Shown here: positions 17,195 through 31,817 of the stretch, piece by piece
How the letters are laid out: each line of letters opens with the position of its first letter
Numbering within the stretch: position 1 is the first letter of the stretch
NCBI RefSeq assembly: GCF_004102025.1
Contig: NZ_CP025228.1
Span: forward strand, 1,178,001 to 1,242,000
Reading direction: 5' to 3'
Length of the DNA stretch: 64,000 nt
From: Actinomyces qiguomingii
GTDB taxonomy: Bacteria; Actinomycetota; Actinomycetes; Actinomycetales; Actinomycetaceae
Notes under the pieces: model-generated
What the model was told of the DNA's origin: nothing
Database searches by the model: none
The model's input: only the letters and a program-made list of their open reading frames with translations
Translations under genes and position numbers: made by a program

Positions 17195-18508
17195 ATGACG
17201 ACTTCACCCGTAGATGCCGCCAACGACGCCGAAGCCTTCGTCGCCGCCACCGCCCGCGCCGCCCGTCAGGCTCAGCGGGCCCTGGCGGGAGTCGACCGTG
17301 AGCGTAAGGATGCGGCGCTGCACGCCATGGCCGATGCACTGGTGGCCCGTACCGAGCCGATTCTCGTCGCCAACGCCGAGGATCTGGCTCGTGCCCGGCA
17401 GGCCGGCATGAAGCCGGGACTTGTGGACCGCCTGGCCCTTGACGATGAGCGTGTGGGTGCAATTGCCGACGCCCTGCGTGAGATCGCCGCCCTGCCCGAT
17501 CCCGTCGGTCAGATCGTTGACGGACAAACCCTGCCCAATGGACTGCGCGTGCGCCGTGTACGCGTGCCCCTGGGCGTGGTCGGAATGATCTACGAGGCCC
17601 GGCCTAATGTCACGGTGGACGTCGCCGCCTTGACCCTGAAATCCGGCAACGCCGTAGTGCTGCGGGGCGGCAGTGCGGCCGCGGACACCAACGCCGCCAT
17701 CATCGCCGTGCTGCGTGAGGCCTTGGAGACCGCGGATCTGCCCGCCGACCTGGTCACCACCATTGACCCGGCGGGCCGGGCCGGCGCCACGGCCCTCATG
17801 CATGCCCGCGGTCTGATCGACGTACTGGTACCGCGCGGCGGAGCCGGCCTGATCCGTGCAGTTGTGGAGGAATCCAGCGTGCCGGTAATCGAGACCGGCT
17901 CGGGCAACTGCCATGTGTATGTTGATGCGGCGGCCGACCTGGCCAGCGCCGTAGACATCATCATCAACGCCAAGACTCAGCGAGTGGGTGTGTGCAATGC
18001 CGCGGAGACACTGCTCGTGCACCGTTCGGCCGCCTCCGCCTACCTGCCGTCGGCGGCCCACGCCCTGTGGGAGCGCGGCGTTACCCTGCACGCCGACGCC
18101 GCCGCGCACGCCTATCTGGAAGAACAGGCTGCCGCGCAGGGCCACGCGGAACTACTGGTGGAGGCGACGCAGGCGGATTGGCAGACCGAGTACGGCAGCC
18201 TGGATCTGGCGGTGCGAGTGGTCGACACCATTGACGACGCCATCTCCCATATCGCCGCATACTCCACCGGACACACCGAGGCAATCTTGACGCAGGACGT
18301 GACTGCCATGAACCAGTTCATCGACCAGGTCGATTCGGCCGCGGTCATGGTCAACGCCTCAACCCGCTTCACCGACGGCGGACAGCTGGGTCTGGGCGCC
18401 GAACTGGGAATCTCCACGCAGAAACTGCACGCCCGCGGCCCCATGGGGCTGGCGGCGCTGACCACCATAAAATGGATCGTCGAGGGTCGCGGACACCTGC
18501 GTCCATGA
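17195..18508 (+). CDS. proA: gamma-glutamyl phosphate reductase
   Basis: A 437-residue aldehyde-dehydrogenase-fold enzyme that reduces gamma-glutamyl phosphate to glutamate semialdehyde with NADPH. Visible marks are PLGVVGMIYEARPNVTVDVA (about 128-147), VLRGGS, and the catalytic Cys in QRVGVCNAAETLLVH (about residue 268), plus the ProA end LGISTQKLHARGPMGL. ATG 17195 gives the family length; the ribosome-binding site is weak. Confidence 0.96.
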   Translation: MTTSPVDAANDAEAFVAATARAARQAQRALAGVDRERKDAALHAMADALVARTEPILVANAEDLARARQAGMKPGLVDRLALDDERVGAIADALREIAALPDPVGQIVDGQTLPNGLRVRRVRVPLGVVGMIYEARPNVTVDVAALTLKSGNAVVLRGGSAAADTNAAIIAVLREALETADLPADLVTTIDPAGRAGATALMHARGLIDVLVPRGGAGLIRAVVEESSVPVIETGSGNCHVYVDAAADLASAVDIIINAKTQRVGVCNAAETLLVHRSAASAYLPSAAHALWERGVTLHADAAAHAYLEEQAAAQGHAELLVEATQADWQTEYGSLDLAVRVVDTIDDAISHIAAYSTGHTEAILTQDVTAMNQFIDQVDSAAVMVNASTRFTDGGQLGLGAELGISTQKLHARGPMGLAALTTIKWIVEGRGHLRP

Positions 18509-18566
18509 CCCGACTCCCCGCTCCGCCGCCCTTCGGCGCCGGGGCCGACCACCAGGAGACAAAGCC

Positions 18567-19025
18567 ATGAACCCCGACCGAGGCAGACTATTGGCGGTCT
18601 TGGTTGCCGCCGCTGCCACAGTTCTACTTGTATGTGTGGCCATTCTGGTCCTACGTCGACCCGCCGGTCTCGACGACGAGCCCGGCATCGCCATGACTCC
18701 GCCCATCACCCCGACCGTGCAGGTCGGTCGCGGCGCCGGACCCCTGATGACGCCATCACCTTCGCCCTCACCCTCGCCCACACCGGACTCTAATAGTGGT
18801 GGTTCGACCACCACGGATAACGGCGCCGGCGGCCCGGAGGTCGTGCAGCAGGCACCGCCGCAGGACGTCTCGCCTCAGGGAGGTTCCGGGTCCGGCTACT
18901 CCGGCACGTGGAACAACAGCGGTGGCGGCAACACGGGCTACACGAATCGCAGCTCCGATGACGACGATGACGACGACGACGACGATGACGATGATGATGA
19001 CGACGACGATGACGACGACGACTGA
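18567..19025 (+). CDS. exported or membrane-anchored protein with a 22-Asp C-terminus
   Basis: 152 residues, no recognised family. After MNPDRGR comes one hydrophobic segment (LLAVLVAAAATVLLVCVAIL, about 8-29), either a signal anchor or an uncleaved signal peptide. The outer part is Pro/Ser/Thr/Gly-rich (TPSPSPSPSPTP) and the protein ends in exactly 22 aspartates (codons 18957-19022, mixed GAT and GAC). AGGAG precedes the ATG. The mixed codons argue against recent simple slippage and for selection on the acidic tail. It converges on the two-component genes at 19104-21343, so a role as metal-binding or charge-sensing partner is a guess. Confidence 0.75.
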   Translation: MNPDRGRLLAVLVAAAATVLLVCVAILVLRRPAGLDDEPGIAMTPPITPTVQVGRGAGPLMTPSPSPSPSPTPDSNSGGSTTTDNGAGGPEVVQQAPPQDVSPQGGSGSGYSGTWNNSGGGNTGYTNRSSDDDDDDDDDDDDDDDDDDDDDD

Positions 19026-19103
19026 TCGCCAGTCGCGTTGGCCGCGTTCGCCCCAACGTGGGTGGGGTGGACAACCGGTGGTGCCGCAGGGGCGGTAGCG
19101 GCA

Positions 19104-19766
19104 TCAGATGAGCCGGTAGCCGACGCCGCGGACCGTCTCCAGTCGCTGCTTGCCGAGTTTTCCTCTCAGGTAGGAGACGTACACGTCCACCACATTCGAA
19201 CCGGGATCGAAATCGAGTCCCCACACATTGGCTAGCAGCTGTTCGCGGCTGAGCACCTGCCCGGGGTGACGCATGAACATCTCGGCGAGCGCGAACTCCC
19301 TTGCCGACAGGTCGACCCACTCCCCGGCCACCTGCACCCGGCGCGCACGTATGTCCAACGCCAGATCCTTGTGCTCCAGTACTCCCGGTTCGCTGGCTGT
19401 CGCCTCGCGGGGGCGCAGCCGAAGTCGAATCCGGGCTACGAGCTCGTCGAAGGAGAAGGGCTTGGGCAGGTAGTCGTCCGCACCGCCCTGAAGCCCGGCT
19501 ACGCGGTCCGCGACGGAGGAACGGGCGGTGAGCATGATCACCGGCGTGGTCACCCCCTGTCCGCGCAGACGTTCGAGCACCTCGAAACCGTCGATGTCCG
19601 GCAGCCCCACGTCCAACAGGATGATGTCGACATCCCCGAGCAGGGCCATCTCCACGGCGTCCGTACCGTTGTCGACAACCTTGGGCACAAATCCGGCGGC
19701 CTTGAGTCCCTTGGTGAGGAATGAGGTGATGCGCTCCTCGTCCTCCACTATCAGTACGGTGGTCAT
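19104..19766 (-). CDS. OmpR-family response regulator
   Basis: 220 residues. The receiver domain starts MTTVLIVEDEERITSFLTKG, with phospho-Asp in IILLDVGLPDIDGFEVL (about residue 52), then LTARSS and the KPFSFDEL Lys. A winged-helix DNA-binding domain (about 125-220) has FALAEMFMRHPGQVLSREQL and ends in VRGVGYRLI. The ATG overlaps the kinase stop by 4 bp. It is the last gene of the long minus-strand operon starting at 29184. Confidence 0.93.
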   Translation of the reverse strand: MTTVLIVEDEERITSFLTKGLKAAGFVPKVVDNGTDAVEMALLGDVDIILLDVGLPDIDGFEVLERLRGQGVTTPVIMLTARSSVADRVAGLQGGADDYLPKPFSFDELVARIRLRLRPREATASEPGVLEHKDLALDIRARRVQVAGEWVDLSAREFALAEMFMRHPGQVLSREQLLANVWGLDFDPGSNVVDVYVSYLRGKLGKQRLETVRGVGYRLI

Positions 19767-21343
19767 GTCTTATCAGACTCCTTCAGCTGCACCGACCGCG
19801 TCTCGTCGGCGGTCGTCAGGGGAATGCGCAGCGTGAACACCGATCCTCTCCCAACCTCGGAGGAAACCGCAATACGTCCGCCGTGAGCTTGCACGATACT
19901 GTCCACGATGCTCAGGCCGAGGCCGGCGCCTGAGGCGTAGCGCGTGGCCTGCGCGGTTCGGGCGAACCTGAGCCGGATGCGTTCCATATCCTCTTGGGCT
20001 ATCCCGATGCCCTCGTCCTCAACCCATAGGAACAGTTCAGACCCGCTGATCTCCGAACCGATGACCACTTGCGAATCCTCTTCGGAGTACTTCACCGCGT
20101 TCGCCGCGAGCTGCAACCAGGCCTGAGTGATGCGCGCCGGATCCAGTTCAGTCGTTCCGGTGGCGCATCCGCCCAACTGCCAATCCCGCTCCCCTAGGGC
20201 ACAGGACTTGTCGAACACTTGCAGTGTCAAGGCCTCGATGTCGGTGGGTTCGGGGGTGACGAAGTCGCTCTGCGAACTTCGGGCCAGATCAAGCAGGTCA
20301 CCGATCAGCGCAACCATCCGGTCGAGTTCGTCCAGGACCAACTCCGAGGTCTGCTTAACGTCGTCGGGGTCGTCGGGGTCGATGAGCTCCAGGTGGCCGC
20401 GCACCACCGTGATGGGGGTACGCAGTTCGTGGCCGACGTCGTCGAGCAGCTCCCGCTGGGCCTCAACCGCACGCTGCACCCGGTCCAGCATGTGATTGAC
20501 GGCAGCTGCCAGCGCCGACAGGTCGTCATGGCCGCGCACTCGCACCCGGGTGGTCAGGTCGCGCTCATCTATCGACTCCGTGGCGTTGCGTAGCTCCCAT
20601 ATGGGCCGCAGCAGCCGCCCGATGCCCAACCACGCCAGTGCCGCCACCAGCATCATGGTCACGGCCGCGGCAGAGGCGTAAATGCGCATGGTGCGCCACA
20701 GGCCCGCTTCAGCGGTGTTCAGGTCGACTACGCGCGCCAGGGCCGCCGTCGTGTTCCCGTCCGTCACCGGCACGGTCAGTACTCGGTAGTGTCCGCGGGC
20801 GGTGTCAATGGTGGTGATGGTGGAGATGTCGCCTTCTGCTTCGGCCAGCAGCCGATCCACCAGTTCGGGATCGTCTTCCGGACGCAGTACGATCCCCTCG
20901 GCCGACACCCATTGCACGGCGCCCTCAACAACGCCGAGCTGTCCCTCCCCGGAGCCCAGTACCGAGCGCTCCATATAGACGCGCAGTGTCTGGGCTGGCT
21001 CGGTCAACGGCTCCTTGGTGGCCGGGTCGATGCCCTCCTCAGCCAGGCGCCGCAGCTCCTGGCGGGTGAGAACCAGACGGTTGTCAATGTCGTCATGGAT
21101 GGAACGAAGATCCAGCATCCACACGGCTGCGCCAGAGGTCACCAGAGCGACCGAGGCGACCAGGAAGATCGTCCAAATGATCCGGGTGCGGATGGTCGCC
21201 CGGGCGAACGGGGCGGTGACCTTCACGAGCCCATTGTGCCAACCGCGGATGGGCTCGCGCTTCCATTTGGGCCCCTTAGGCCCCCATTCGTGCTGTGAAC
21301 TCGTGGTGGGGCCGGGCCCGGCGGTGGCGAACGGTGCGTACAT
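19763..21343 (-). CDS. two-component sensor histidine kinase
   Basis: 526 residues: N-terminal cytoplasmic stretch, TM1 (about 55-75, WTIFLVASVALVTSGAAVWM), an extracytoplasmic sensor of about 130 residues, TM2, HAMP, HisKA with His in DDVGHELRTPITVVRGH (about residue 303), and HATPase with ANAVKYS, DEGIGI and GAGLGLSIV. The start follows GGGAGG and abuts the stop of the upstream kinase-like gene. The signal is unknown. Its place at the end of a glycan-type operon suggests that it monitors the envelope or the exported product. Confidence 0.92.
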   Translation of the reverse strand: MYAPFATAGPGPTTSSQHEWGPKGPKWKREPIRGWHNGLVKVTAPFARATIRTRIIWTIFLVASVALVTSGAAVWMLDLRSIHDDIDNRLVLTRQELRRLAEEGIDPATKEPLTEPAQTLRVYMERSVLGSGEGQLGVVEGAVQWVSAEGIVLRPEDDPELVDRLLAEAEGDISTITTIDTARGHYRVLTVPVTDGNTTAALARVVDLNTAEAGLWRTMRIYASAAAVTMMLVAALAWLGIGRLLRPIWELRNATESIDERDLTTRVRVRGHDDLSALAAAVNHMLDRVQRAVEAQRELLDDVGHELRTPITVVRGHLELIDPDDPDDVKQTSELVLDELDRMVALIGDLLDLARSSQSDFVTPEPTDIEALTLQVFDKSCALGERDWQLGGCATGTTELDPARITQAWLQLAANAVKYSEEDSQVVIGSEISGSELFLWVEDEGIGIAQEDMERIRLRFARTAQATRYASGAGLGLSIVDSIVQAHGGRIAVSSEVGRGSVFTLRIPLTTADETRSVQLKESDKT

Positions 21344-22429
21344 CTATCCCTCCCTGATGCGGGCCGCCCAGGCGCGGTCGGGTGAGGCGGCTAGGTGCAG
21401 GGATTCATCCGTCCAGGCGGGTAGCCACTGCTGCGCGCCGGGGCGGAAGGCGTGCACGAAACTCAAACGCAGCCGTGAAGCCAGGTAGTAGGCGGACAAT
21501 CTGGGTACGGACGCCAGGTCTTGCGCCAGATCGTCCAGGAGCCTACCTACATGCGTGTGTGCCTGAGCGCCGAGTCTGCCCTGGGCGCGCGCGAGGTCAA
21601 CGTGCGCGGCCAGATTGCCCAGATCCAGGGCGGGTTCGGCCAGGGCAGCGGTGTCCAGATCAAGCAGTGAAAGCACCGTGCCGTCCCATAGCAGTTGGCC
21701 GTCGTGAAGGTCCCGGTGCGAGGCGGCCGGCGGATCTCCGGGCTTGCGCAGCAGAGCCGAAACCGTGTCGATGGCTGCGCTCAGGGCGGGGCGGAGTTCG
21801 TCCTGTGCCCCGATTGTGTCAATTGCGCCCAGCCTGAGTGCGCGGCGGTGCCAGCGTTGCATAACCGCGGCCTCGTCGGCTCCGGTGTGTTCCGGCAGCG
21901 ATTCGGGACGGATCACGCCGGGCCACAGCTGTGTCAGCCGTTCCCAGCCCGCCAGTCCTGCATCCGACAGCTCGTGGAGGGAACGACCCGGCAGCAGTTC
22001 CAGGTGCACACTGGACTCGGAGCGGGCCAGAACCTCGGCGGTCCGTAGGCCCGCCCGCAGGAAGGGACCTGCCGCCCGCGGATCGGCTAGTCTTTCGGCC
22101 CGCCCGACGCGTACCAGCTTGTGCACCCGGTCGGTGCCCATGACGACGGCGCGGCGCCCTGCCCGGTGAACCACCAGGCGGCCCTCGGCGTGCGGGGCCA
22201 CCAGGCGGGTGGACAGGTCGGGCAGGGCCGGATCTTGGGCGTAGGGGAGCGTGTCGACCTGTCCGGCGGCATTGATCCTTCCGGCGCGTAGGTGCCCCGA
22301 GGAGTCGCGGCATTCGAAGACCAGGCCCCGGTCCTTATCTGGCCAGGCGCGCTCCCACCCGGCCAGGTCCCGCAGTGCGGTCATGGCGGGCGGCGATGCC
22401 ACCGTGTGGGGATCCATATCGGCGCTCAT
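21344..22429 (-). CDS. APH-fold phosphotransferase (small-molecule kinase)
   Basis: 361 residues. The C-terminal half has the aminoglycoside-phosphotransferase pattern: SHRDLHDGQLLWDG (catalytic Asp) and LLDLDTAALAEPALDLGNLA (metal-binding Asp). The N-terminal half is divergent. ATG 22429 overlaps the upstream stop by 4 bp and has GGAGG 4 nt ahead. Such kinases phosphorylate sugars, amino alcohols or antibiotics; context argues for a glycan precursor, not drug resistance. A second, different APH protein is immediately upstream. Substrate unknown. Confidence 0.75.
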   Translation of the reverse strand: MSADMDPHTVASPPAMTALRDLAGWERAWPDKDRGLVFECRDSSGHLRAGRINAAGQVDTLPYAQDPALPDLSTRLVAPHAEGRLVVHRAGRRAVVMGTDRVHKLVRVGRAERLADPRAAGPFLRAGLRTAEVLARSESSVHLELLPGRSLHELSDAGLAGWERLTQLWPGVIRPESLPEHTGADEAAVMQRWHRRALRLGAIDTIGAQDELRPALSAAIDTVSALLRKPGDPPAASHRDLHDGQLLWDGTVLSLLDLDTAALAEPALDLGNLAAHVDLARAQGRLGAQAHTHVGRLLDDLAQDLASVPRLSAYYLASRLRLSFVHAFRPGAQQWLPAWTDESLHLAASPDRAWAARIREG

Positions 22430-23628
22430 GACGCCTCCTTTGATTGCATGCGGTTCAAGCTCCTCTCCCACTGCCATCCGTTTTGTCCGGGTGGAGCTTC
22501 CAACAGCGCTTCTATACGGTCGATTTCGATTCCGATCCGGCGGCGCCAGTGGGGGTCCCCGTGGCGTAGCGGATCCTGGAGACGCTCCAAGCGGGCCCGG
22601 GCTACGGCCCCCCGCAGTTGGGTGTCGCTAGGAACCCGCCCCCCGGCCTCGGCGTAACCCGTGAGCAGGGCGGGGGCGGTCGTCGAATCGGTCTGAGTCA
22701 GGTAGGAGCCCAGGTCTACGGCGGCAGGCGCGAGCCGGACCCGGTCGAAGTCGGTCAGCCAGATCCGGCCGGTGCACCGGTCCAGGAGCACCTGGTCGGG
22801 GGAGGCGTCCCCGTGGACTAGCACCGACTCTCCGCGTGGCTGGGGCGGCATGGCCTCGCCGAGTCGGCGCACGCGGGCGGCTAGTGTCGGATCGAGGTGG
22901 TTGAGCACATGGGTGTGCACCAGCGCCAGGTTCCCGGCGCTGGGGACCTTATTGTCCAGGTCCCGGCGCATAGGCCCGGACAGCTCATCGGTGGCGGCGT
23001 GCAGAGCGGCCAGCACGGCGCCGGCCCGGATGGTGGCCGTCGGATCGTGGTGGCGGCTCAGGTCGGTGTCGCCGACGAAGCGCTGGAGGCTGAGATGAGC
23101 GGTGTCCGTGGCGTCCGGAACGGGCAGCTGTGAAGGCACCGGCAGATACCGGGATACGAACTCTTGCAGGGCGTTGGCCCTGCGTTGGGAGGCCGCGGTG
23201 ACTCGCACCACCCCCTGGGAGGTGCGGACCACCAGGCGGCGCAGTGGGTTGTAACGCAGCAGGTTCCCCTCCAGGGCTCCCAGGAGCCCGGCCTCACGGG
23301 CGGCGGCGGCGTGCTTGACCAGCGTCGGGTCGGCGGCCACCTCGCCGGTCTGGAACAGTAGGCCGTCGCCGGTGTCACGCTGGATGGTGCGCAGTCCGAG
23401 TCGGTTGGCACGGTGGGCTGCCTTGGCCGCCTTGACGCGGCTGCCCGGCCACAGCAGTCGGGCCCAGCCGGCGCTGCGTCCGGTGTCGGACCGAAGCAGG
23501 GACACCGTCACCGACACCCCCGGTTTTATGCGCAGCCGCGCTGCCCGCACCGAGAAGCCCACGAGTTCGCTGAGTCGGTCCGGGCTGAGCACCGTGTCGA
23601 CGGCGCTGCGCGTGCTACTGACGTACAT
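22426..23628 (-). CDS. APH-fold phosphotransferase, second paralogue
   Basis: 400 residues with SVLVHGDASPDQVLLD (the HGD..P.Q catalytic loop, His-Gly-Asp complete) and IWLTDFDRVRLAPAAVDLGS. It is only distantly like the neighbouring kinase. AGGAGG lies 4 nt before the ATG and the gene overlaps the ABC exporter stop by 14 bp, so translation is coupled. With the neighbouring kinase it may act on successive or paired substrates. No substrate can be named. Confidence 0.75.
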   Translation of the reverse strand: MYVSSTRSAVDTVLSPDRLSELVGFSVRAARLRIKPGVSVTVSLLRSDTGRSAGWARLLWPGSRVKAAKAAHRANRLGLRTIQRDTGDGLLFQTGEVAADPTLVKHAAAAREAGLLGALEGNLLRYNPLRRLVVRTSQGVVRVTAASQRRANALQEFVSRYLPVPSQLPVPDATDTAHLSLQRFVGDTDLSRHHDPTATIRAGAVLAALHAATDELSGPMRRDLDNKVPSAGNLALVHTHVLNHLDPTLAARVRRLGEAMPPQPRGESVLVHGDASPDQVLLDRCTGRIWLTDFDRVRLAPAAVDLGSYLTQTDSTTAPALLTGYAEAGGRVPSDTQLRGAVARARLERLQDPLRHGDPHWRRRIGIEIDRIEALLEAPPGQNGWQWERSLNRMQSKEAS

Positions 23629-25492
23629 GGGTCCTCCTGTTCATGTCCTCGGTCTGATCATTGACATGGGTTTCGGTCCGGTCGCCTCCCGGGCCGGTGT
23701 TGGTGAGCAGCTCCCGTTGGGCGGCGCCGGCGGCGGCCCACGCCCGGAACAGCGGTGATTCGTCGAGCAGTTGCTGCGGGGGGCCGTCGAGTCGAATGCG
23801 GCCGTCCTCGATCCACACCACCCGGTCCGAGCGCAGTGCGACCTCGGAGTCGTGGGTGACGGCCAGCAGGGTGCGGCCGCGTGAGAGCCGGTCGACGGCG
23901 TCCAGGACCAGGTTCGACGACGTCGGGTCCAGCCCGGTGGTCGCCTCGTCCAGAATGACGACGGGCGCATTGCGCAGCAGCGCCCGCACTATGGCGACGC
24001 GTTGGCGCTGGCCGCCGGACAGTGTGCCGCCGCGTTCCCCTACGATCGTGTCATAGCCGTCGGGCAGGGCGCTGATGAACTCGTGCGCTCCGGCCGCCAC
24101 CGCCGCGGCCTCCACCTCCGCATCGGTGGCCTCGGGGCGGCCCATGCGGATGTTGTCCCGCACGGATGCGGCGAACAGCACCGCCTCCTGATGCAGCACG
24201 GAGATGTGCGAGCGCAGCTCGGTCAGCTCCAGGCTGGTGAGGTTGTGGCCGTCCAGGCGCACTCTGCCGTCGATCGGGTCGATTGCCCGCACCACCAGGG
24301 AGGTCAGGGTGGATTTGCCGGATCCGGACGGGCCGACGATGGCTACATGCTCGCCGGCCTTGATCTGCAGGTTGACGCCGTGCAGGATCTCGTGGCCGTC
24401 GTACTCGGTGACCACGTCCTCGAAGGTCAAGGAGCCGCGCACGTGCCCGAGTAGCACGGGATCAACGGGGGAGATGATGTCCGGGTGCACGTCCATGAGG
24501 TTGGCCACCCGCTCCCCGGAGGCGGCGGCCCGGGCGATGCGGCCGGTGTACTTGGCCATATCGCGTAGTGGCTTCATGGTGGTGCGCAGGTAGGTGTTGA
24601 ACAGGACCAGGTCGCCGGGGGTCATGGCCCCGGCCAGAACCCGCAGTCCGCCGCCCACCAGAACCACTGCGGAGGCCAGGCCTACGATCACGTCGGTGGT
24701 GCGCTCCAGGCGTGCGGCCAGGCGCAGTGAGCGCACACCGGCGTGCAGGGAGGTTTGGTTGGCGTTGACGAAGCGGTCCTCGACGATCGGCTCCAGCCCG
24801 TATGCCTGCACCACCTTGATGGTGCTAAGCGCCTCCTGGGCGGTGTTGGCCAGTTGCCCCTCAGACTTGCGGGTGCGGCGGGCCGCGGAGGTGATCTTCT
24901 TGGAGCTGCCGGAGGAGGTCATGAAGAACAGGCTGATTGCGGCCACGACCACCAGCGACAGCAGCGGGTCCAGCCACACCATCACCCCGAGCATGACCGT
25001 CAGGGTGAGCACATTGGCCGCCAGCGGCAGTCCGGCGGTCACGGCCACATCCTGCATGCGAGTGACATCGGAGACGAGTCGCTGAACCGTGTCGGCGGAG
25101 CGGTTGTGGGAGTGGAACTGCTGGGAGAGGGTCTGCACGTGGTGGAAGGCGCGGCGCCGCAGCGCAATCGCGGTGCGGGAGCCGGCCAGCGCGAAGGAGA
25201 CTGTGGCCAGGTAGTTGCATAGGGCCCGCATGGCGACAATCGCGACGAGCGCGGCCCCCAACCCGAGCAGTCGCACCAGACTGGCCGGCGCATAACCGGT
25301 TTCCGCCCCCAGGGAGGACAGGACCGAGTCGATGACGATCTTCATGGGCCACGGCTCAATCACTCGGAAGACCACCTCGGCCAGCAGGGCGAGTGTGCCC
25401 CCGGCTACCAGCTTGGCCTGCGGACGTAGATCCGGCGCGATCAGCCGCAGGGTACGGCTGAGTGCGGAACGATTCATCCGGGGTTCAGACAT
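23615..25492 (-). CDS. ABC exporter, fused membrane and ATPase domains
   Basis: 625 residues: six-helix exporter domain (about 15-320) and ATPase (about 360-600) with Walker A GPSGSGKST, signature LSGGQRQRVAIVRAL, Walker B VVILDEATTGLD and H-loop VTHD. MsbA/lipid-exporter-like layout. ATG 25492 is chosen because GGAGG is 6 nt ahead and it overlaps the glycosyltransferase stop by 8 bp; longer in-frame starts lie inside that gene. It probably exports or flips the product built by the three glycosyltransferases, as a homodimer. Confidence 0.88.
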   Translation of the reverse strand: MSEPRMNRSALSRTLRLIAPDLRPQAKLVAGGTLALLAEVVFRVIEPWPMKIVIDSVLSSLGAETGYAPASLVRLLGLGAALVAIVAMRALCNYLATVSFALAGSRTAIALRRRAFHHVQTLSQQFHSHNRSADTVQRLVSDVTRMQDVAVTAGLPLAANVLTLTVMLGVMVWLDPLLSLVVVAAISLFFMTSSGSSKKITSAARRTRKSEGQLANTAQEALSTIKVVQAYGLEPIVEDRFVNANQTSLHAGVRSLRLAARLERTTDVIVGLASAVVLVGGGLRVLAGAMTPGDLVLFNTYLRTTMKPLRDMAKYTGRIARAAASGERVANLMDVHPDIISPVDPVLLGHVRGSLTFEDVVTEYDGHEILHGVNLQIKAGEHVAIVGPSGSGKSTLTSLVVRAIDPIDGRVRLDGHNLTSLELTELRSHISVLHQEAVLFAASVRDNIRMGRPEATDAEVEAAAVAAGAHEFISALPDGYDTIVGERGGTLSGGQRQRVAIVRALLRNAPVVILDEATTGLDPTSSNLVLDAVDRLSRGRTLLAVTHDSEVALRSDRVVWIEDGRIRLDGPPQQLLDESPLFRAWAAAGAAQRELLTNTGPGGDRTETHVNDQTEDMNRRTHVRQ

Positions 25493-26606
25493 GCTGTACC
25501 TCCGCCTGGTTGAGTATCTGGGCCACGACCGCCTCCCAACTGTGGTGCTTCTCGGCGCGACGCCGTCCCAGATCGCCCCGGCGGGCACGCAGCTGGGGGG
25601 CGATCGCGAGTGCGTCCAGCGCGGCGGCTAAAGCGGCGGGGTCCGACGGCGGGACCAGCACTCCGACGCCGTCGAGCAGCCGCGGCAGCTGACCGACGGC
25701 GGAGGCGACCACCGGCAGGCCGGCCGCAAGGTACTCCAGCACCTTCAGCGGCGAGAAGTACTGCTCGTCCTCCCCGCCCAGGTCCGGGTAGGGCGCCACC
25801 CCGATGGCGCTTCCCGCCAGTGCGGCGGGCACGTCCTGCGGGGCCAGGGCGCCGCGGAAGTCGACCTTCAGGCCGAGCTGCTGTGCCTTGGTCAGCAGGG
25901 ATTGACGCTCCGGTCCGTCCCCGATGATGCGCAGGCTCCAGTCCTCCCGCGCCAGGGAGGCGGCCTGCAACAGATCCGCCACGCCGTGCCAGGGCTTCAA
26001 CGTGCCCACGAAGGTGACGATGACTCCGTCGGGATCTTCCGGGAAGGGAACAAGACGGCGGAGGTTGACACCATTGGGGATGGTGACCGCGCGCGGGGCG
26101 GCGACGTGACCGCACACCCAGCGGCGCACCGGTTCGGAGACGCACACCGTGGTGCTGGCGGCAGTGACTTGGGCACGCAGGGCCGCCAGCGCCCCCGCCT
26201 CGTCCACCAACTTGCGGTGGTGGCGCTGCTCGTCGATCAGTGGGGAGTTGACCTCCAGCACCCCGGGGATGCCCGCGTCGGCCAGGGTGGCTAGGGCGGT
26301 GGAGAACAGGGAGTAGCGCTCGTAGACCAGGTCTGCACCCGCCTCTTTCGCCAGCTCCGCCAAGGCGGCGGCGGCCTCGGCCTGGGCACGCTCGCGGGAG
26401 GCGGCGTCGGTGGCCTCGACTCGGACGATGTTGACGGGCAGGTCGGCCAGGTCCTCGGGTACCAGGTTGCCGCGGCGCACGGCGTACACGCTCACCTCAT
26501 GGCCGGCGCGGCGCAGAGCGCGTACCACCTCCTGAATATGGACGGAGGCGCCCTTGGAGCCGAATACTGGCACACCCGGGTCGGCGCAGATGTAGACGAT
26601 ACGCAT
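25485..26606 (-). CDS. GT4-family glycosyltransferase
   Basis: A 373-residue GT-B enzyme. The N-terminal part has the PVFGSKGASVHIQEVVRAL acceptor-side glycine loop; the C-terminal part has FVGTLKPWHGVADLL and the EX7E-type region FSPLKVLEYLAAGLPVVASA. It should transfer a sugar from a nucleotide donor with retention. Its start abuts the previous gene's stop (shared base 26606). Third of three glycosyltransferases in the operon. Donor and acceptor are unknown. Confidence 0.85.
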   Translation of the reverse strand: MRIVYICADPGVPVFGSKGASVHIQEVVRALRRAGHEVSVYAVRRGNLVPEDLADLPVNIVRVEATDAASRERAQAEAAAALAELAKEAGADLVYERYSLFSTALATLADAGIPGVLEVNSPLIDEQRHHRKLVDEAGALAALRAQVTAASTTVCVSEPVRRWVCGHVAAPRAVTIPNGVNLRRLVPFPEDPDGVIVTFVGTLKPWHGVADLLQAASLAREDWSLRIIGDGPERQSLLTKAQQLGLKVDFRGALAPQDVPAALAGSAIGVAPYPDLGGEDEQYFSPLKVLEYLAAGLPVVASAVGQLPRLLDGVGVLVPPSDPAALAAALDALAIAPQLRARRGDLGRRRAEKHHSWEAVVAQILNQAEVQHV

Positions 26607-27823
26607 TAGTGAATCTCCTGAAGTTCTGGGGTGGACTGCCAGGCGGACAGGGCCGCTGCCTGGGTGCGGGAGTCGAAGTCCCGCTCGATCAGGGCGCGGG
26701 CGTTGCGGGCCAATGGCTGCGGGTCGACGGTTCCCTCCGCCAACTCCCGCAGGGCGCGGGCCAGCGCCTGCGGGTTGCTGTGCGGCAGCAGGATCCCGGT
26801 GTCGCCGTCGCGCACCACTTCCGGCAATCCGGAAACGTCGGTGGCGATCACGGGCGTGCCGCAGGCCATGGACTCCAGCACCACGGTGGGCAGGCCGTCG
26901 ATATTGCCGTCATCGGCGGGTTTGCAGGGGGCGGCGAACACCTGGGCGCGACCCAGCAGGGCGCGCACCTCCTCTTGGGTTAGCGGCCCCAACAGGTTGA
27001 TCCGGTCGGCCAGGCCCTGGGCGGTGATGCGTCCGGCCAGGTTGTCGCGTTCCTCTCCCTCACCGGCGATGTCCAACACTGCGGGCACGCCGGCCTGGGT
27101 GAGGATGCCGACGGCGTCGATGAGGTCGTCGAAGCCCTTCTTGGCCACCAGCCGGCCCACCGCCGCGATACGCAGGGGACCGTCGGCGGGTGCGGGTGGA
27201 CGGAACGGGAAGCGGTCCAGCTCCAGGGCGTTGTAGCGCAGCTCGATGCGGGCGCCGGTGCCTGCCAGCAGTGAGTGCAGGTTGCGCTGGTTGTAGTGGC
27301 TGATGGCGATCACGCGATCGGCGTCGGCGCAGATTCGACGCAGCCACAGCTGGCTGACGGACTCGTGGTAGATGTCCTTGGCGTGGGTCGTCACCGTGTA
27401 GGGGATGCCACTCAGACGGGAGGCGATCCAGGCGGTGCGGCCCGCTAGAGAGGCGAAGTGGGCGTGCAGATGGGTGATGCCCGCGTCACGGGCGCTGCGG
27501 GCCAGCGCCGCCCCCTGGGCGACCTCGTCACCGGGCAGATCCGCCACGGCGGGCAGGATCTCGGCCAGGTGCGTGCGCATGTCCGGCTCCTTGAGGGAAC
27601 CGGCCAGCAGCCCCCACATGTCGACGGCGCGGCGTGGCCGCGGCACCCAGTTCACCTGCGCCCGAATGCGGGCGATCTCGGGGTGGAAGCGGGAGTCGGT
27701 GGTGGGACGCAGGGCGTAGATGGTCAGGTCGTCGCCCAGAGCCTCGCGGGCGAGCATCTCGGTGACTACGAAGGTCTCCGAGAAGCGGGGGTAGACCTTG
27801 AGGACGTAGCCGATGCGGGTCAT
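26606..27823 (-). CDS. GT4-family glycosyltransferase (colanic-acid/AmsD-like)
   Basis: 405 residues starting MTRIGYVLKVYPRFSETFVV, an N-terminus common in exopolysaccharide GT4 enzymes. HLHAHFASLAG and VTTHAKDIY follow, then VGRLVAKKGFDDLI and GLPTVVLESMACGTPVIATD (EX7E). ATG 27823 overlaps the upstream stop by 4 bp and has GGAG 9 nt ahead; the longer open frame upstream is not real coding. Confidence 0.85.
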   Translation of the reverse strand: MTRIGYVLKVYPRFSETFVVTEMLAREALGDDLTIYALRPTTDSRFHPEIARIRAQVNWVPRPRRAVDMWGLLAGSLKEPDMRTHLAEILPAVADLPGDEVAQGAALARSARDAGITHLHAHFASLAGRTAWIASRLSGIPYTVTTHAKDIYHESVSQLWLRRICADADRVIAISHYNQRNLHSLLAGTGARIELRYNALELDRFPFRPPAPADGPLRIAAVGRLVAKKGFDDLIDAVGILTQAGVPAVLDIAGEGEERDNLAGRITAQGLADRINLLGPLTQEEVRALLGRAQVFAAPCKPADDGNIDGLPTVVLESMACGTPVIATDVSGLPEVVRDGDTGILLPHSNPQALARALRELAEGTVDPQPLARNARALIERDFDSRTQAAALSAWQSTPELQEIH

Positions 27824-29184
27824 GAGGCCATCTCCTTGAATGCGGGTGTGGAATCGAGCTGGGTTTGCAGCAGGGCGGCGGCGCGGCGGGCCGCCGCGGG
27901 CAGTCCGTCGGTTTCCAGGCCGGTGCGGGGCACGCGTCGGCTCACCGCGCGGGCGGCCCAGTCGGACAGCACACGGGCAGTTAGTTCCTCGGTGCGCACG
28001 TAGTCGACGGCACCGACCGCCTGAAGAGCGCGGGCCCGGATGAGCTGTTCCCGGCGTGGCTGCTCGCGGGGGACGATTAGGGCGGGAGTGGAGGTGGCCA
28101 GGATCTCGCAGGCGGTGTTGTAACCGCCCATGGCTACCACCGCGGAGGCGCGCTCGATCCATCGGCTCAGCCCGGGCAGCGAGCGGTGCACCTCGGTGTC
28201 GGGACCGGCCACCGACTGTACGGCGTCGAATCCGTTCTCTTCCAGCTGCGGGCCGGTGACCAGGACGTGCTTGTAGCCGGGGGGAGGGGTCATGCGGGCG
28301 GCGCTGCGCAGGAGCTCGAAGCCGTCGGAGCCGCCGCCGACTGTGGTCAAGACGAAGGGCTCGGACATCTCACAGCGACCGCGGTCCAGCAGGCTGCGGC
28401 CATTGGCCAGGTAGCCGGTGAACACGGCGCGGTCGCGCAATGAGGCGGGAACTTCGCCGGTGGCGACGGGATTGTGCACGGCGGGGTCTCCGTAGACCCA
28501 GACCTCGTCGATGATGTTGCGCAGGTTGCCGGGGGTGTCCAGGTTGCGCCATTCGGCGTCGGCCACCTCCGGTGCATCCAACACTTCACGCAGCCCTAGA
28601 ACTATACGTGTGTCGGGGGAGACGGCGCGCAGGTGCCGCAGTGGGGCGCGTAGCTCCTTACGCACCCCGTAGATGTGGCGGTCCACGATCACTAGGTGGG
28701 GCGCGAAGCGTTGCAGGGCGGAGGCCACCAGACCGGAGCGCAGCGTCGCCAGCGAGTCGGGGGTGCCGCGCAACCCGCGGGGCCGGTAGCCGCCGGGCGC
28801 CTTGGTGAAGCCCGGCAGCACCAGCCAGTCGAAGCCTGCGGGCAGGGAGAAGCCGGGGGAGGGGGATACTCCGGCCACCAGTAGGCCGGTGATCGAGGCG
28901 CCGGTCAGTGCGGGTAGATCGCTGGCGAGCCGGTGCGCGAGGGCCAGATTACGACGCAGGTGACCCAGGCCCTGAGCGTCATGGCTGTAGAGCAATACCC
29001 GTAGTGAACGCGGTGCGGCAGGTCGTGCCAAGGCCCGTGTGTGCGCCGGCGCCGGAGTGGGGGACAGGGTGGGTGCCGCGGAAATCGGCGTCGGGTCGGG
29101 GGCCAGGCTGAGCGCCGCCGGGGCCGGGTTGCTTCCCGGATGCGGCGGGTTAAGGGGCAGCGATAGGGGGCGTATGCGAGTCAT
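27820..29184 (-). CDS. GT-B glycosyltransferase (COG4671-like, MurG-type fold)
   Basis: 454 residues. A Pro/Ala-rich leader (about 1-65) precedes LRVLLYSHDAQGLGHLRRNL, the glycine-rich loop of the MurG/UGT-like predicted glycosyltransferase group. The C-terminal part has VLTTVGGGSDGFELL and ASAVVAMGGYNTACEIL, resembling MurG donor-site segments. It is the first gene of the eight-gene minus-strand operon. ATG 29184 has GGAAAGAAG about 7 nt upstream; the longer frame to 29388 overlaps the terminator region and is rejected. Confidence 0.78.
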   Translation of the reverse strand: MTRIRPLSLPLNPPHPGSNPAPAALSLAPDPTPISAAPTLSPTPAPAHTRALARPAAPRSLRVLLYSHDAQGLGHLRRNLALAHRLASDLPALTGASITGLLVAGVSPSPGFSLPAGFDWLVLPGFTKAPGGYRPRGLRGTPDSLATLRSGLVASALQRFAPHLVIVDRHIYGVRKELRAPLRHLRAVSPDTRIVLGLREVLDAPEVADAEWRNLDTPGNLRNIIDEVWVYGDPAVHNPVATGEVPASLRDRAVFTGYLANGRSLLDRGRCEMSEPFVLTTVGGGSDGFELLRSAARMTPPPGYKHVLVTGPQLEENGFDAVQSVAGPDTEVHRSLPGLSRWIERASAVVAMGGYNTACEILATSTPALIVPREQPRREQLIRARALQAVGAVDYVRTEELTARVLSDWAARAVSRRVPRTGLETDGLPAAARRAAALLQTQLDSTPAFKEMAS

Positions 29185-29480
29185 GAGAAGTCTTCTTTCC
29201 GGTCGCCTGGTGGCGACTTCGTTACCAGACTCCCGCCCGCCCAACAGCTGGGGGTGAGATGACGATGAGAATTCTCTAAGGCGACGCCGAACCTTGTTCT
29301 CCGCCGGCTCCGTCCGCTTGCCCGGTCCATGGACATCGTGCCGATTCCGAGCCGGTCCGCTGACTCGCCGTCGTCGTGGCGGGCGCACTCGGGGGCGCCC
29401 AGATCAATGCCTGGGCGCCCCCGAGGAAGGCGCGATACGCGGGGCGGAGCTTCAAGCGGATCCGCCTACCGCCACGCGGG
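29185..29480. other. intergenic region with promoter side of the glycosyltransferase operon
   Basis: Holds a perfect 10-bp palindrome GAGAATTCTC (29267-29276), a GTCGCC-TGGT-GGCGAC hairpin (29202-29217) in the predicted leader of the operon, and the terminator at 29398-29435. No gene is seen. Confidence 0.45.
29398..29435 (-). terminator. terminator downstream of the Dcu carrier
   Basis: CTCGGGGGCGCCCAG (29398-29412) and CTGGGCGCCCCCGAG (29421-29435) form a perfect 15-bp stem with an 8-nt loop, 46 bp after the carrier stop. No T-run is present, as is common in high-GC actinobacteria. It isolates the carrier from the glycosyltransferase operon. Confidence 0.75.
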
Positions 29481-30791
29481 TCACACGACGAACGGCGCGG
29501 CTAGGAATCCCAGCGCCACACATACGATGATGGCGGCGGTTCCGGGAAGCACGAAGGGGTGGTTGAGCACCACCTTGCCCACCCGGGTGGAGCCGGTGTC
29601 GTCCATCTCCATGGCCGCAACGGTGGTCGGGTAGTTGGGCAGCAGGTAGTAGTTGGCCACGGCGGGATAGGAGGCCAGCAGGGCCGTGCCCGGCAGACCC
29701 AGGGCCACCATGAGCGGCATAAATGCGCGCGTGGTGGCGGCGTGGGAGAACATCAGCGGCGCGGCGAAGTAGAAGAAGACCGCAACCAGCCAAGGCGCAG
29801 CCTGGAAGGGGCCGGACAGGGCGTCGGAGATGGTCTCCTCGTAGTGGTTGACAAAGGCATTGCCCAGCCAGGCCAGGCCGAGGATGCACACGGCGGCGGT
29901 CATGCCGGCGCGGAAGGTGTCCTGGGTGGCGATCTGTGCGGTGGGCTTTTTCGCTACGGCGCAAATAATCGCGGCGGTGGCCAGCATGATCGTCATGATC
30001 GCCGGGGTGGAGCCCATCGGCGGGGCGGACATGATGTTCAGCTCGGGAGAGGCGACGGTGGCATAGGTGACCACCACGATGAGGGCGATCATGAAGATGG
30101 TCAGGGCCGGCACCGCGCTGGGGGCTGCCTTGTAGTCGGAGGCGGCAGCGGCGGAGGGCTTGACCAGGCCTTTGGCCTTGCGCTCGATGTAAACCGGGTC
30201 GTCCTCCAGCTCGGAGCCCTGGAAGTAGGCGACGACGGCGCCGACCATGCAGCCGATGAAAGTGGTGGGGATGACGATGGCCAGGCACTGCAGGTAACCG
30301 ATACCGATCGGTTCCAGAGCGACGACGAGAGCCACCATGGCTGCGGAGATGGGGGAGGCGGCTACGCCGACCTGCGAGGAGACCACGGCGATGGACAACG
30401 GACGCGAGGGGCGGATGCCGTGCCCCTTGGCGACATCTACGATCACCGGGATGACGGAGTAGGCGGTGTGTCCGGTGCCGCACAGCAGGGACATCAGGTA
30501 GGTGACGATCGGCGCCAGGAACACGATCTGTTTGGGGTGCCTACGTAGAAGGACCTCGGTGAGATGAACCAGATGGTCCATGGCGCCGGCGAGTTGTAGC
30601 GCGGCGACCGTGCAGATCACCGACATGATGATGCCGATGACCTCCCAGGGGGCGGCCTCGGTTGAGGTGTGCACGCCTGTTGCCACCAGCACGAGGATGC
30701 CGGCGCCGCCTGCCAGACCGATGCCGACACCTCCCATACGGGCACCGATGACTATGAACAGTAAGACGACGGCCAGATGGAACCAGATCAT
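29481..30791 (-). CDS. anaerobic C4-dicarboxylate transporter, DcuA/DcuB family
   Basis: A 436-residue membrane protein of 10-12 segments. The Dcu N-terminus (GARMGGVGIGLAGGAGILVL), PIVTYLMSLLCGTGHTAYSV and the C-terminal LLPNYPTTVAAMEMDDTG fit DcuA/B. It exchanges fumarate, aspartate or malate for succinate under anaerobic growth. AAAGGAG serves ATG 30791 (or the adjacent ATG 30794). The gene stands alone between the terminator at 29398 and the nadD promoter region. Confidence 0.88.
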   Translation of the reverse strand: MIWFHLAVVLLFIVIGARMGGVGIGLAGGAGILVLVATGVHTSTEAAPWEVIGIIMSVICTVAALQLAGAMDHLVHLTEVLLRRHPKQIVFLAPIVTYLMSLLCGTGHTAYSVIPVIVDVAKGHGIRPSRPLSIAVVSSQVGVAASPISAAMVALVVALEPIGIGYLQCLAIVIPTTFIGCMVGAVVAYFQGSELEDDPVYIERKAKGLVKPSAAAASDYKAAPSAVPALTIFMIALIVVVTYATVASPELNIMSAPPMGSTPAIMTIMLATAAIICAVAKKPTAQIATQDTFRAGMTAAVCILGLAWLGNAFVNHYEETISDALSGPFQAAPWLVAVFFYFAAPLMFSHAATTRAFMPLMVALGLPGTALLASYPAVANYYLLPNYPTTVAAMEMDDTGSTRVGKVVLNHPFVLPGTAAIIVCVALGFLAAPFVV

Positions 30792-31133
30792 CATCGATCT
30801 CCTTTCGGGACGGGGGGACATTGCTGCCCTCAACCGGTCGCCCGGCAGACCGTCAGCGTCCCTGTCGGGGCAGGGACGCCAGCAGGGCGTCCTCCGGGGA
30901 AGGATGAAGGCAACCTGCTGTGATGGTAGACATAAATCGTCTTTGCTGTGTGTATTTTGGGCATCCGGATGTCATGACTGTTGGTCGTCGACGATGCCTC
31001 AACATCGGAACGCAGCGTGTGAGAATCGGTTTCGACGGCCGCGGCGTGGCAGTATGTAGATGTCCGTGCGCAGTCGGTGCACGGAACGAACCGGAGGAGA
31101 ACCCGTGGAGAGCGACAACGTGGAGGGGCGCCA
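30792..31133. other. divergent intergenic region between dcu-type gene and nadD
   Basis: No gene is seen. The centre (about 30918-30960) is less GC-rich and contains TGTGATGGTAGACATA, a poor half-match to a CRP-type palindrome. Divergent promoters are expected here but none is convincing. Confidence 0.4.
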
Positions 31134-31817
31134 GTGAGTGGCAGCAGTGCGCGTCCCCTGCGCATAGGGATCATGGGTGGCACCTTTGATCCCGTCCACC
31201 ACGGCCACCTCGTGGCCGCCTCGGAGGTGCAGGACGTCTTCGGTCTGGATGAGGTCATCTTCGTTCCCACCTGGGCGCAGCCCTTCAAGAAGGATCGACG
31301 GGTCTCACCGGCCGAGCACCGCTACCTGATGACGGTGATCGCGACCGCCTCCAACCCGCGTTTCACGGTCTCCCGAGTGGACATCGACCGGGGCGGCACG
31401 ACCTACACGATCGACACGCTCCACGACATCATGGCGGAGTATCCGGGCGCCGAGCTGTACTTCATCACCGGTGCGGATGCCCTGGCACAGATACTCACCT
31501 GGAAGGACAACGAGGAGATCCTCTCCCTGGCACATATGGTCGGGGTGACCCGGCCGGGTCATGTACTCACTGATACCGGCCTGCCCGCGGACAAGATCTC
31601 GCTGGTGGAGGTGCCCGCCATGGCGATCTCCTCGACCGACTGCCGTGAGCGGGTCGGTCGGGGTGGTCCCGTGTGGTACCTCGTTCCCGACGGCGTGGTC
31701 CAGTACATCCGCAAGTACGGTCTGTACCGCGTGCCCGGGCGGTCGACGTCGACAACATCGATGACCGCCCATGTCGCGCGTGAGCAGTCCCTGAGGAAGG
31801 AGAACGACGGTGAGTGA
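31134..31817 (+). CDS. nadD: nicotinate-nucleotide adenylyltransferase
   Basis: 227 residues with the NadD nucleotide-binding loop [15 protein letters not shown], then VPTWAQPFK and the [10 protein letters not shown] signature near residue 165. It adenylates nicotinate mononucleotide to make NaAD in NAD synthesis. GTG 31134 is chosen from GGAGGGG 4-5 nt upstream. The gene overlaps the next by 8 bp and belongs to the nadD-membrane protein-rsfS cluster. Confidence 0.95.

Follow-up and report, generated by a model that had tools for sequence, protein, structure and literature searches.

A block of eight genes was analysed in a 64,000-nt window of the one-contig, 3.99-Mb assembly of Actinomyces qiguomingii, which has A. 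ruminicola, A. glycerinitolerans and A. succiniciruminis as close named relatives. All eight open reading frames lie on the minus strand, start with ATG, contain no internal stops and have a GC content at third codon positions of 0.77-0.89. They code for GT1, a glycosyltransferase of 454 amino acids with a GT28 C-terminal domain (27820..29184), the two GT4-family glycosyltransferases GT2 (26606..27823, 405 amino acids) and GT3 (25485..26606, 373 amino acids), an MsbA-type ABC exporter with membrane and ATPase parts on a single chain of 625 amino acids (23615..25492), the APH-fold kinases APH1 (22426..23628, 400 amino acids, HxD....Q and DxD kept) and APH2 (21344..22429, 361 amino acids), a sensor histidine kinase with HAMP-HisKA-HATPase domains (19763..21343, 526 amino acids) and an OmpR-type response regulator (19104..19766, 220 amino acids). 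The junctions measure -4 nt (GT1/GT2), -1 nt (GT2/GT3), -8 nt (GT3/ABC), -14 nt (ABC/APH1), -4 nt (APH1/APH2), 0 nt (APH2/histidine kinase) and -4 nt (histidine kinase/regulator), and by eye a GGAG-like or similar purine-rich site precedes every start. Residues 1 to about 60 of GT1 form an extension that is present in the closest relatives only. An earlier note on this DNA had described such a same-strand block with overlapping or abutting genes, and this was confirmed, the seven junctions overlapping by 1-14 nt or abutting; the families that it had named were borne out by family matches and, for APH2, by a structural model. It had overlooked an Asp-tailed membrane protein of 152 amino acids, encoded on the plus strand convergently with the regulator gene (18567..19025), a direct repeat with an 11-bp step, TCTCATCGTCATCTCA, located on the minus strand 70 nt 5' of the GT1 start codon (29255..29270), and a dehydrogenase gene present in the loci of 44 of 72 relatives.

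Gene conservation, order and fusions were computed directly, as were co-inheritance, kinase motifs, the repeat and the companion protein. A GT1 profile scan of 84,980 species genomes returned 159 confirmed places, of which the best 80, chosen by GT1 likeness, were kept. According to their titles, these loci include members of Actinomycetaceae, Propionibacteriaceae, Corynebacterium, Rothia, Kocuria, Arthrobacter, Cryobacterium and Microbacterium, and 72 of them have sequence enough for six genes. GT2, GT3 and the ABC gene follow GT1 in all 72 loci with room, and both APH kinases are present in 70, as separate genes in 64 and as one fused gene in 6, all of them Kocuria. The earlier note had named homologues that never occur together as a refutation, and this check did not refute it, the order around the 454-residue glycosyltransferase being kept in and beyond the Actinomycetaceae. 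Since the same order recurs in 72 of 72 relatives with room, the arrangement lies far beyond chance. A separate junction count chose the starts nearest to the upstream stop, which favours overlaps, and was not used as evidence. If common gene families had merely come to lie side by side, the two-component system being a bystander, this could appeal to the abundance of ABC, GT4 and two-component genes and to the many genomes in which the two-component system is unlinked. This explanation is refuted for the six-gene core by the conservation of the first four genes in all 72 loci with room, and both the domain fusions and the occurrence of the repeat at cassettes and at unlinked regulator operons in four Arthrobacter genomes speak against it, so that we regard its probability as negligible.

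The distribution of GT1 is patchy, since only 17 of 296 genomes in an even sample of the phylum have it at an E-value of 1e-40 or better. Among 13 distant loci fetched from the phylum (L128-L140), three have the six genes in order (L130-L132) and two retain all six with ABC and APH1 fused into proteins of 968 and 973 amino acids (L134 and L139). One kinase is relocated ahead of the ABC gene in L135 and L136, the cassette is rearranged in L129, no kinase was seen within 1.5 kb behind the ABC gene in L140, and L128, L133, L137 and L138 run off their contigs. Besides the six Kocuria loci, a single APH1-APH2 protein is found in Paracoccus aestuarii (740 amino acids). Since fused partners normally act together, both kinases and the exporter probably form one functional unit, and the fusions yield the testable claims that each kinase acts in concert with the other and that both act with the exporter. 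The order GT28-GT4-GT4-ABC-APH-APH is shared by plasmids of E. coli, Paracoccus and Pseudorhodobacter, and the 10-kb E. coli segment was found in 18 of 5426 complete genomes, on plasmids every time. In many Actinomycetota the cassette is preserved whole, and it turns up again in Pseudomonadota and, in a looser form, in Nitrospirota. One contig bearing the label Vibrio cholerae (L101) holds part of an actinobacterial-type cassette; as judged from cassette likeness only, it is probably a contaminated assembly.

In the genus, GT1 was found in 19 of 25 genomes (one, G015, with a broken copy) and the response regulator in exactly those 19, the same 6 genomes having neither. APH2 (E below 1e-50) was present in 18 of the 19 GT1-bearing genomes, the exception being G015. 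Among 14 further genomes from the order but not the genus, two (G028 and G036) carry GT1 (E 1.9e-106 and 1.9e-69) together with APH2 and the regulator, and two others (G025 and G031) have the regulator alone. With stricter score limits, 37 of the 69 relatives with enough sequence carry the two-component system inside the locus; with looser limits applied to all 80 loci, 42 have it and 38 do not. When 20 genomes with a cassette unlinked from sensor genes were searched, a relative of the regulator was detected elsewhere in 18. The eight-gene unit of the earlier note stood as a conserved block, with a core reduced to six genes and a two-component system that is separable from it. Within the genus, two incomplete cassette copies in G012 and a collapsed copy in G015, which retains the sensor genes, were also observed; these partial or broken copies (L143, L144, L145) are a natural loss series. 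All eight unlinked sensor stretches of one set (L192-L199) contain a further APH2-like gene (48-63 bits) in the vicinity of the genes for sensor and regulator.

Upstream of GT1, the exact repeat CTCA-N7-CTCA was found in 35 of 77 regions, compared with 0.34-0.9 in shuffled sequences and 1 on the reverse strand, and spacings of 5, 6 and 8 gave 0, 1 and 0. With at most one mismatch, it was present in 62 of the 77 regions, whereas shuffles gave about 10 and the reverse strand 10. The regions comprised 75 of the 80 loci, the Paracoccus locus L127 and the window; loci with little upstream sequence (L038, L041), without a GT1-labelled frame (L048, L059) or without the anchor motif (L090) were dropped. 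After removal of the window, L127 and the suspect L101, 33 exact repeats and 60 with at most one mismatch remained (n = 74). The exact repeat is equally common without (17/35) and with (18/42) the two-component system in the locus, and in Paracoccus a similar repeat, TTCTAATGAACTTCTAAT, lies between the divergent sensor and GT1 genes. Direct repeats of this kind are typical of OmpR-type regulators, and the repeat of the window is presumed to be the regulator's binding site, which provides a promoter ready for assay. It is the sole exact TCTCATNNNNNTCTCA in the host genome; since a genome-wide search with one mismatch gave 15 sites, the exact one included, against 7 in a reversed-pattern control, no regulon can be named from it. 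A CutRS-type regulator was rejected, as the conserved repeat is not TAWATAAA, the CutR site given in PMC12802291.

In four Arthrobacter genomes (L192-L195), the repeat stands at the start of the unlinked regulator operon. Being present at the cassette as well as at the separate regulator operon, one site therefore links both in these genomes though they lie apart. The placement is what matters here, since 9 of the 20 unlinked stretches contain an exact repeat at some position, with a shuffle mean of 3.35 and a maximum of 6 of 20. Among the linked flanks (L169-L188, n = 20), only 4 contain the exact repeat, none of them at the start of the Asp-tail gene.

The product of this gene has a single N-terminal transmembrane pass, a DEPGIAM motif, a linker rich in Pro, Ser and Thr, and 22 terminal Asp residues. 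Homologues of the same build, accepted partly by eye and with 9-22 acidic residues among the last 30, follow the regulator gene in 19 of the 20 loci with extended flanks; L177 has none. Of the cassette loci, 34 of the 42 that include the two-component system have the gene, against 0 of the 38 that do not, where 18 of the 34 cases come from flanks extended only for two-component loci (16/42 versus 0/38 when unextended) and 8 of the 38 loci are too short to judge. The rule used wrongly took L105, by eye an unrelated nucleotidyltransferase-like protein, and missed L067, so that the net count is still 34 of 42; the sequences of L044 and L053 end close behind the regulator. A density of 13 acidic residues in 20 was reached by only 16 of 6995 non-core frames, and 14 of these 16 look like the Asp-tail protein. 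In Kocuria, the gene is the last one of the cassette and lies apart from the sensor genes. As a prediction test, unlinked regulator operons were searched, in species that are related and so do not give independent counts, and the gene was found near the regulator in 14 of 18; a looser rule gave 15, of which L197 (a frame of 95 amino acids on the other strand) was set aside as doubtful. In L198 the gene is about 1.9 kb away, and it was found neither in L196, L199 and L207 nor in L206 and L208, the second hits of two genomes. Conserved along with the two-component system in several families of actinobacteria, the predicted protein is a candidate sensor part of an unfamiliar kind. In Pseudorhodobacter (L150 3061-3408), a PepSY-domain protein with the acidic tail DDDEDDDD, resembling the actinobacterial Asp-tail gene, is encoded next to the regulator gene.

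Both kinases carry HxD and DxD residues on an APH fold and have structural matches; in APH-fold kinases, HxD is catalytic and DxD metal-binding. In APH1, H272, D274, Q279 and D293 are invariant in alignments A3 and A5, and D295 is invariant in A3 and kept in at least 90% of A5. APH2 had no Pfam match and shows the APH kinase fold in its model (predicted local distance difference test, pLDDT, 94.6); its residues H238, D240, D257 and D259 are invariant in alignments A2 and A4, with Q245 kept in at least 90%. Foldseek matches of APH2 include glucosamine kinase and maltokinase (6hwl at rank 1, 4u94 at rank 9), and methylthioribose kinases rank first by VIA-align. The likeness to the actinobacterial glucosamine kinase and maltokinase is structural, whereas identity is only about 16%; the catalytic loop of maltokinase has Gln instead of Asn. 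For APH1, the best match in NCBIfam was LxmK, the class V lanthipeptide kinase, which it also matches in structure. However, the LxmK model NF038156 gave 34.1 and 17.5 bits, below its cut-off of 315, and no lanthipeptide genes were recognised in the block, so that a class V lanthipeptide system was rejected (34.1 versus 315 bits).

Next to the established routes of glycan export, the cassette shows partial likenesses. Family searches of the eight block proteins found no Wzx flippase and no Wzy polymerase, bearing out the earlier remark that these usual polymer genes are absent. The PF13372 barrel and the nucleotide-sugar dehydrogenase at the end of the E. coli cassette resemble the alginate-type synthase-dependent secretion outlined in PMC9601211. 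In contrast to that route, the block has no recognised membrane-embedded processive synthase, only GT28 and GT4 enzymes, and possesses an MsbA-type ABC exporter and two kinases; the AlgE-type barrel was found only in the E. coli plasmid version and not in the window. Actinomyces is a Gram-positive genus. With the KpsMT and Wzm-Wzt routes, the cassette shares the synthesis of a glycan in the cytoplasm and ABC export. Unlike their separate ABC-2 permease and ATPase, its exporter is a fused MsbA-type half transporter (PF00664 and PF00005 on a single chain), and PCP/OPX proteins are neither among the eight block genes nor annotated in the E. coli version. In the ABC-dependent O-antigen route, the kinase WbdD is able to modify the chain. 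HepA and PglK, MsbA-like exporters of glycans or lipid-linked oligosaccharides, belong to the same superfamily as the cassette exporter and their genes adjoin glycosyltransferases; we know of no kinases alongside them. The exporter scored 314.6 bits with the HepA model NF045513 (cut-off 725) and 138.2 bits with the PglK model NF050066 (cut-off 1000). Judged from sequence comparisons, the cassette does not have all the features that define any one of the Wzx/Wzy, synthase or KpsMT/Wzm-Wzt routes, nor does it fit any export route, the ABC-transporter-dependent capsule and O-antigen pathways included, outlined in the available part of PMC9601211. No description of it was found in a search of the open-licence literature. 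We regard the cassette as a novel form of glycan export, and there is a real chance that it constitutes a separate route. Anti-phage defence was rejected as well, since PADLOC returned only partial ATPase matches of the ABC protein among the six cassette proteins.

Clues to the product come from genes that accompany the cassette. Many relatives have a nucleotide-sugar dehydrogenase gene between APH2 and the histidine kinase; in the 44 loci with a gene of the UDP-glucose-dehydrogenase type, 39 carry it on the cassette strand. The general nucleotide-sugar dehydrogenase model was passed by the genes of both L046 and E. coli, and the solved structures nearest to the L046 protein are UDP-glucose dehydrogenases. 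The host genome holds a dehydrogenase of the cassette type in trans, about 175 kb away (655 bits with the cassette profile). On the E. coli plasmids, the cassette is followed by a barrel of the alginate-export family PF13372, of AlgE type (82.6 bits), and a dehydrogenase. In Candidatus Manganitrophus, a heparinase II/III-type lyase gene lies amid GT28, GT4 and two APH genes, in a stretch where no exporter was read. Since the dehydrogenase is found in 44 of 72 loci and the E. coli version has an AlgE-type barrel, the product is probably a uronic-acid glycan; dehydrogenase, barrel and lyase together suggest an acidic, uronate-containing glycan. Surface glycans govern biofilm formation and contact with phages and hosts.

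The earlier note had left the product as a glycolipid, a glycan or a glycosylated metabolite. Such an acidic glycan is favoured within this range, being more likely than a small metabolite. A glycosylated secondary metabolite, phosphorylated by the APH kinases before export as self-protection, would agree with the weak similarity of GT1 to a macrolide glycosyltransferase and with the antibiotic kinases among APH folds, but the block has no biosynthetic scaffold genes. Flank clustering (frames of at least 100 amino acids, greedy non-overlap) found no non-core gene common to more than 8 loci; it also missed the Asp-tail gene, partly since many loci ended just past the regulator. Its presence in 19 of 25 genomes within the genus, together with its reappearance in other phyla, is not what a producer-specific cluster would show, and the dehydrogenase and the AlgE-type barrel indicate a glycan. 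We consider the metabolite very unlikely, and an antibiotic cluster with APH self-resistance was rejected because the flanks hold no conserved scaffold genes.

We consider it fairly probable that the six genes GT1-GT2-GT3-ABC-APH1-APH2 form a conserved cassette for the synthesis and export of an acidic glycan of the cell surface, modified by the cassette's kinases and under the control of its own sensor. The histidine kinase and the Asp-tail protein would detect an envelope cue, and the regulator would bind the repeat 5' of GT1 and switch the cassette on. The three glycosyltransferases would then assemble the glycan in the cytoplasm with UDP-glucuronate among the donors, the two APH-type kinases, situated near the exporter, may phosphorylate either the glycan or a precursor that is lipid-linked or soluble, and export across the membrane would fall to the MsbA-type ABC protein. 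In this scheme, we infer the product and its phosphorylation, what the kinases act on, in which direction control runs and what the signal is. The self-regulated pathway of building, phosphorylating and exporting that had been proposed earlier is well supported by conservation, fusions, co-inheritance and the repeat, its phosphorylation step being the part that we infer.

Several observations weigh against this reading. One locus has a single kinase (L105) and another none (L082), and plasmids of Ruegeria, Rhizobium and Azospirillum carry related GT1 and GT2 genes without kinases and with no exporter directly behind. Since G025 and G031 carry the regulator without GT1, and no relative of the regulator was detected at E 1e-62 in two cassette genomes, the tie between cassette and two-component system is not a strict one. 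The dehydrogenase is not in the block of the window and 28 of 72 loci do not have it. In L046 it scores below the equivalog cut-offs (355 versus 700 for TuaD, 330.7 versus 670 for AglM), and the E. coli enzyme, best with the UDP-glucose 6-dehydrogenase model, reaches 568.5 versus a cut-off of 757. The functions of all cassette genes are putative assignments by comparison. Moreover, family searches recognised no priming phosphoglycosyltransferase, ligase or polymerase in the block, and because of this the block agrees equally well with a polymer and with a short glycolipid or oligosaccharide. The cassette might then yield a glycolipid, phosphorylated and with only a short oligosaccharide, that the exporter flips to the outer leaflet, with no polymer involved. 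The best named models for the ABC protein are MsbA-related, and MsbA-type exporters move lipid-linked substrates; GT1 is related to MurG, which acts on a lipid-linked acceptor, and three glycosyltransferases with no polymerase suit a short chain. The AlgE-type barrel of E. coli and the heparinase-type lyase of Ca. Manganitrophus suit, on the contrary, a polymer released outside, and we hold the glycolipid to be unlikely, if worth keeping in view.

The acidic glycan could also be placed in a wider scheme, which we put forward tentatively as a possible yet rather unlikely one. Here, a uronate glycan made by GT28-GT4-GT4 enzymes would have a separate secretion route, in which two kinases physically coupled to the MsbA-type exporter phosphorylate the glycan, this phosphorylation gating or marking export, and an AlgE-type barrel is optional in Gram-negative hosts. 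A three-part sensor would belong to it, with the polyaspartate tail reading cations or the product and signalling to the histidine kinase.

Some minor observations were made around the cassette and its relatives. On the plasmids of Ruegeria, Rhizobium, Azospirillum and Shinella (L124, L125, L126 and L168), relatives of the GT1 and GT2 genes are joined by one more glycosyltransferase gene but no kinases, in the variable company of a histidine phosphatase, a polysaccharide deacetylase, a polysaccharide lyase or, in Shinella, an ABC_membrane protein, which lies behind the transferases with no kinase. In the host genome, the stretch near the trans dehydrogenase (L154 11579-14388) holds, by eye, dTDP-rhamnose-type genes and long glycan-synthesis proteins and is a second surface-glycan region. 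Weak consensus scans of this GC-rich sequence, with yields no higher than in shuffles, gave no promoter in 18400-31200 and no minus-strand terminator within the block. Between the dcu gene and the block, a perfect 15-bp hairpin was found at 29388..29425 (strand not assigned); it is terminator-like, has no T run and sets the block apart from the upstream dcu gene.

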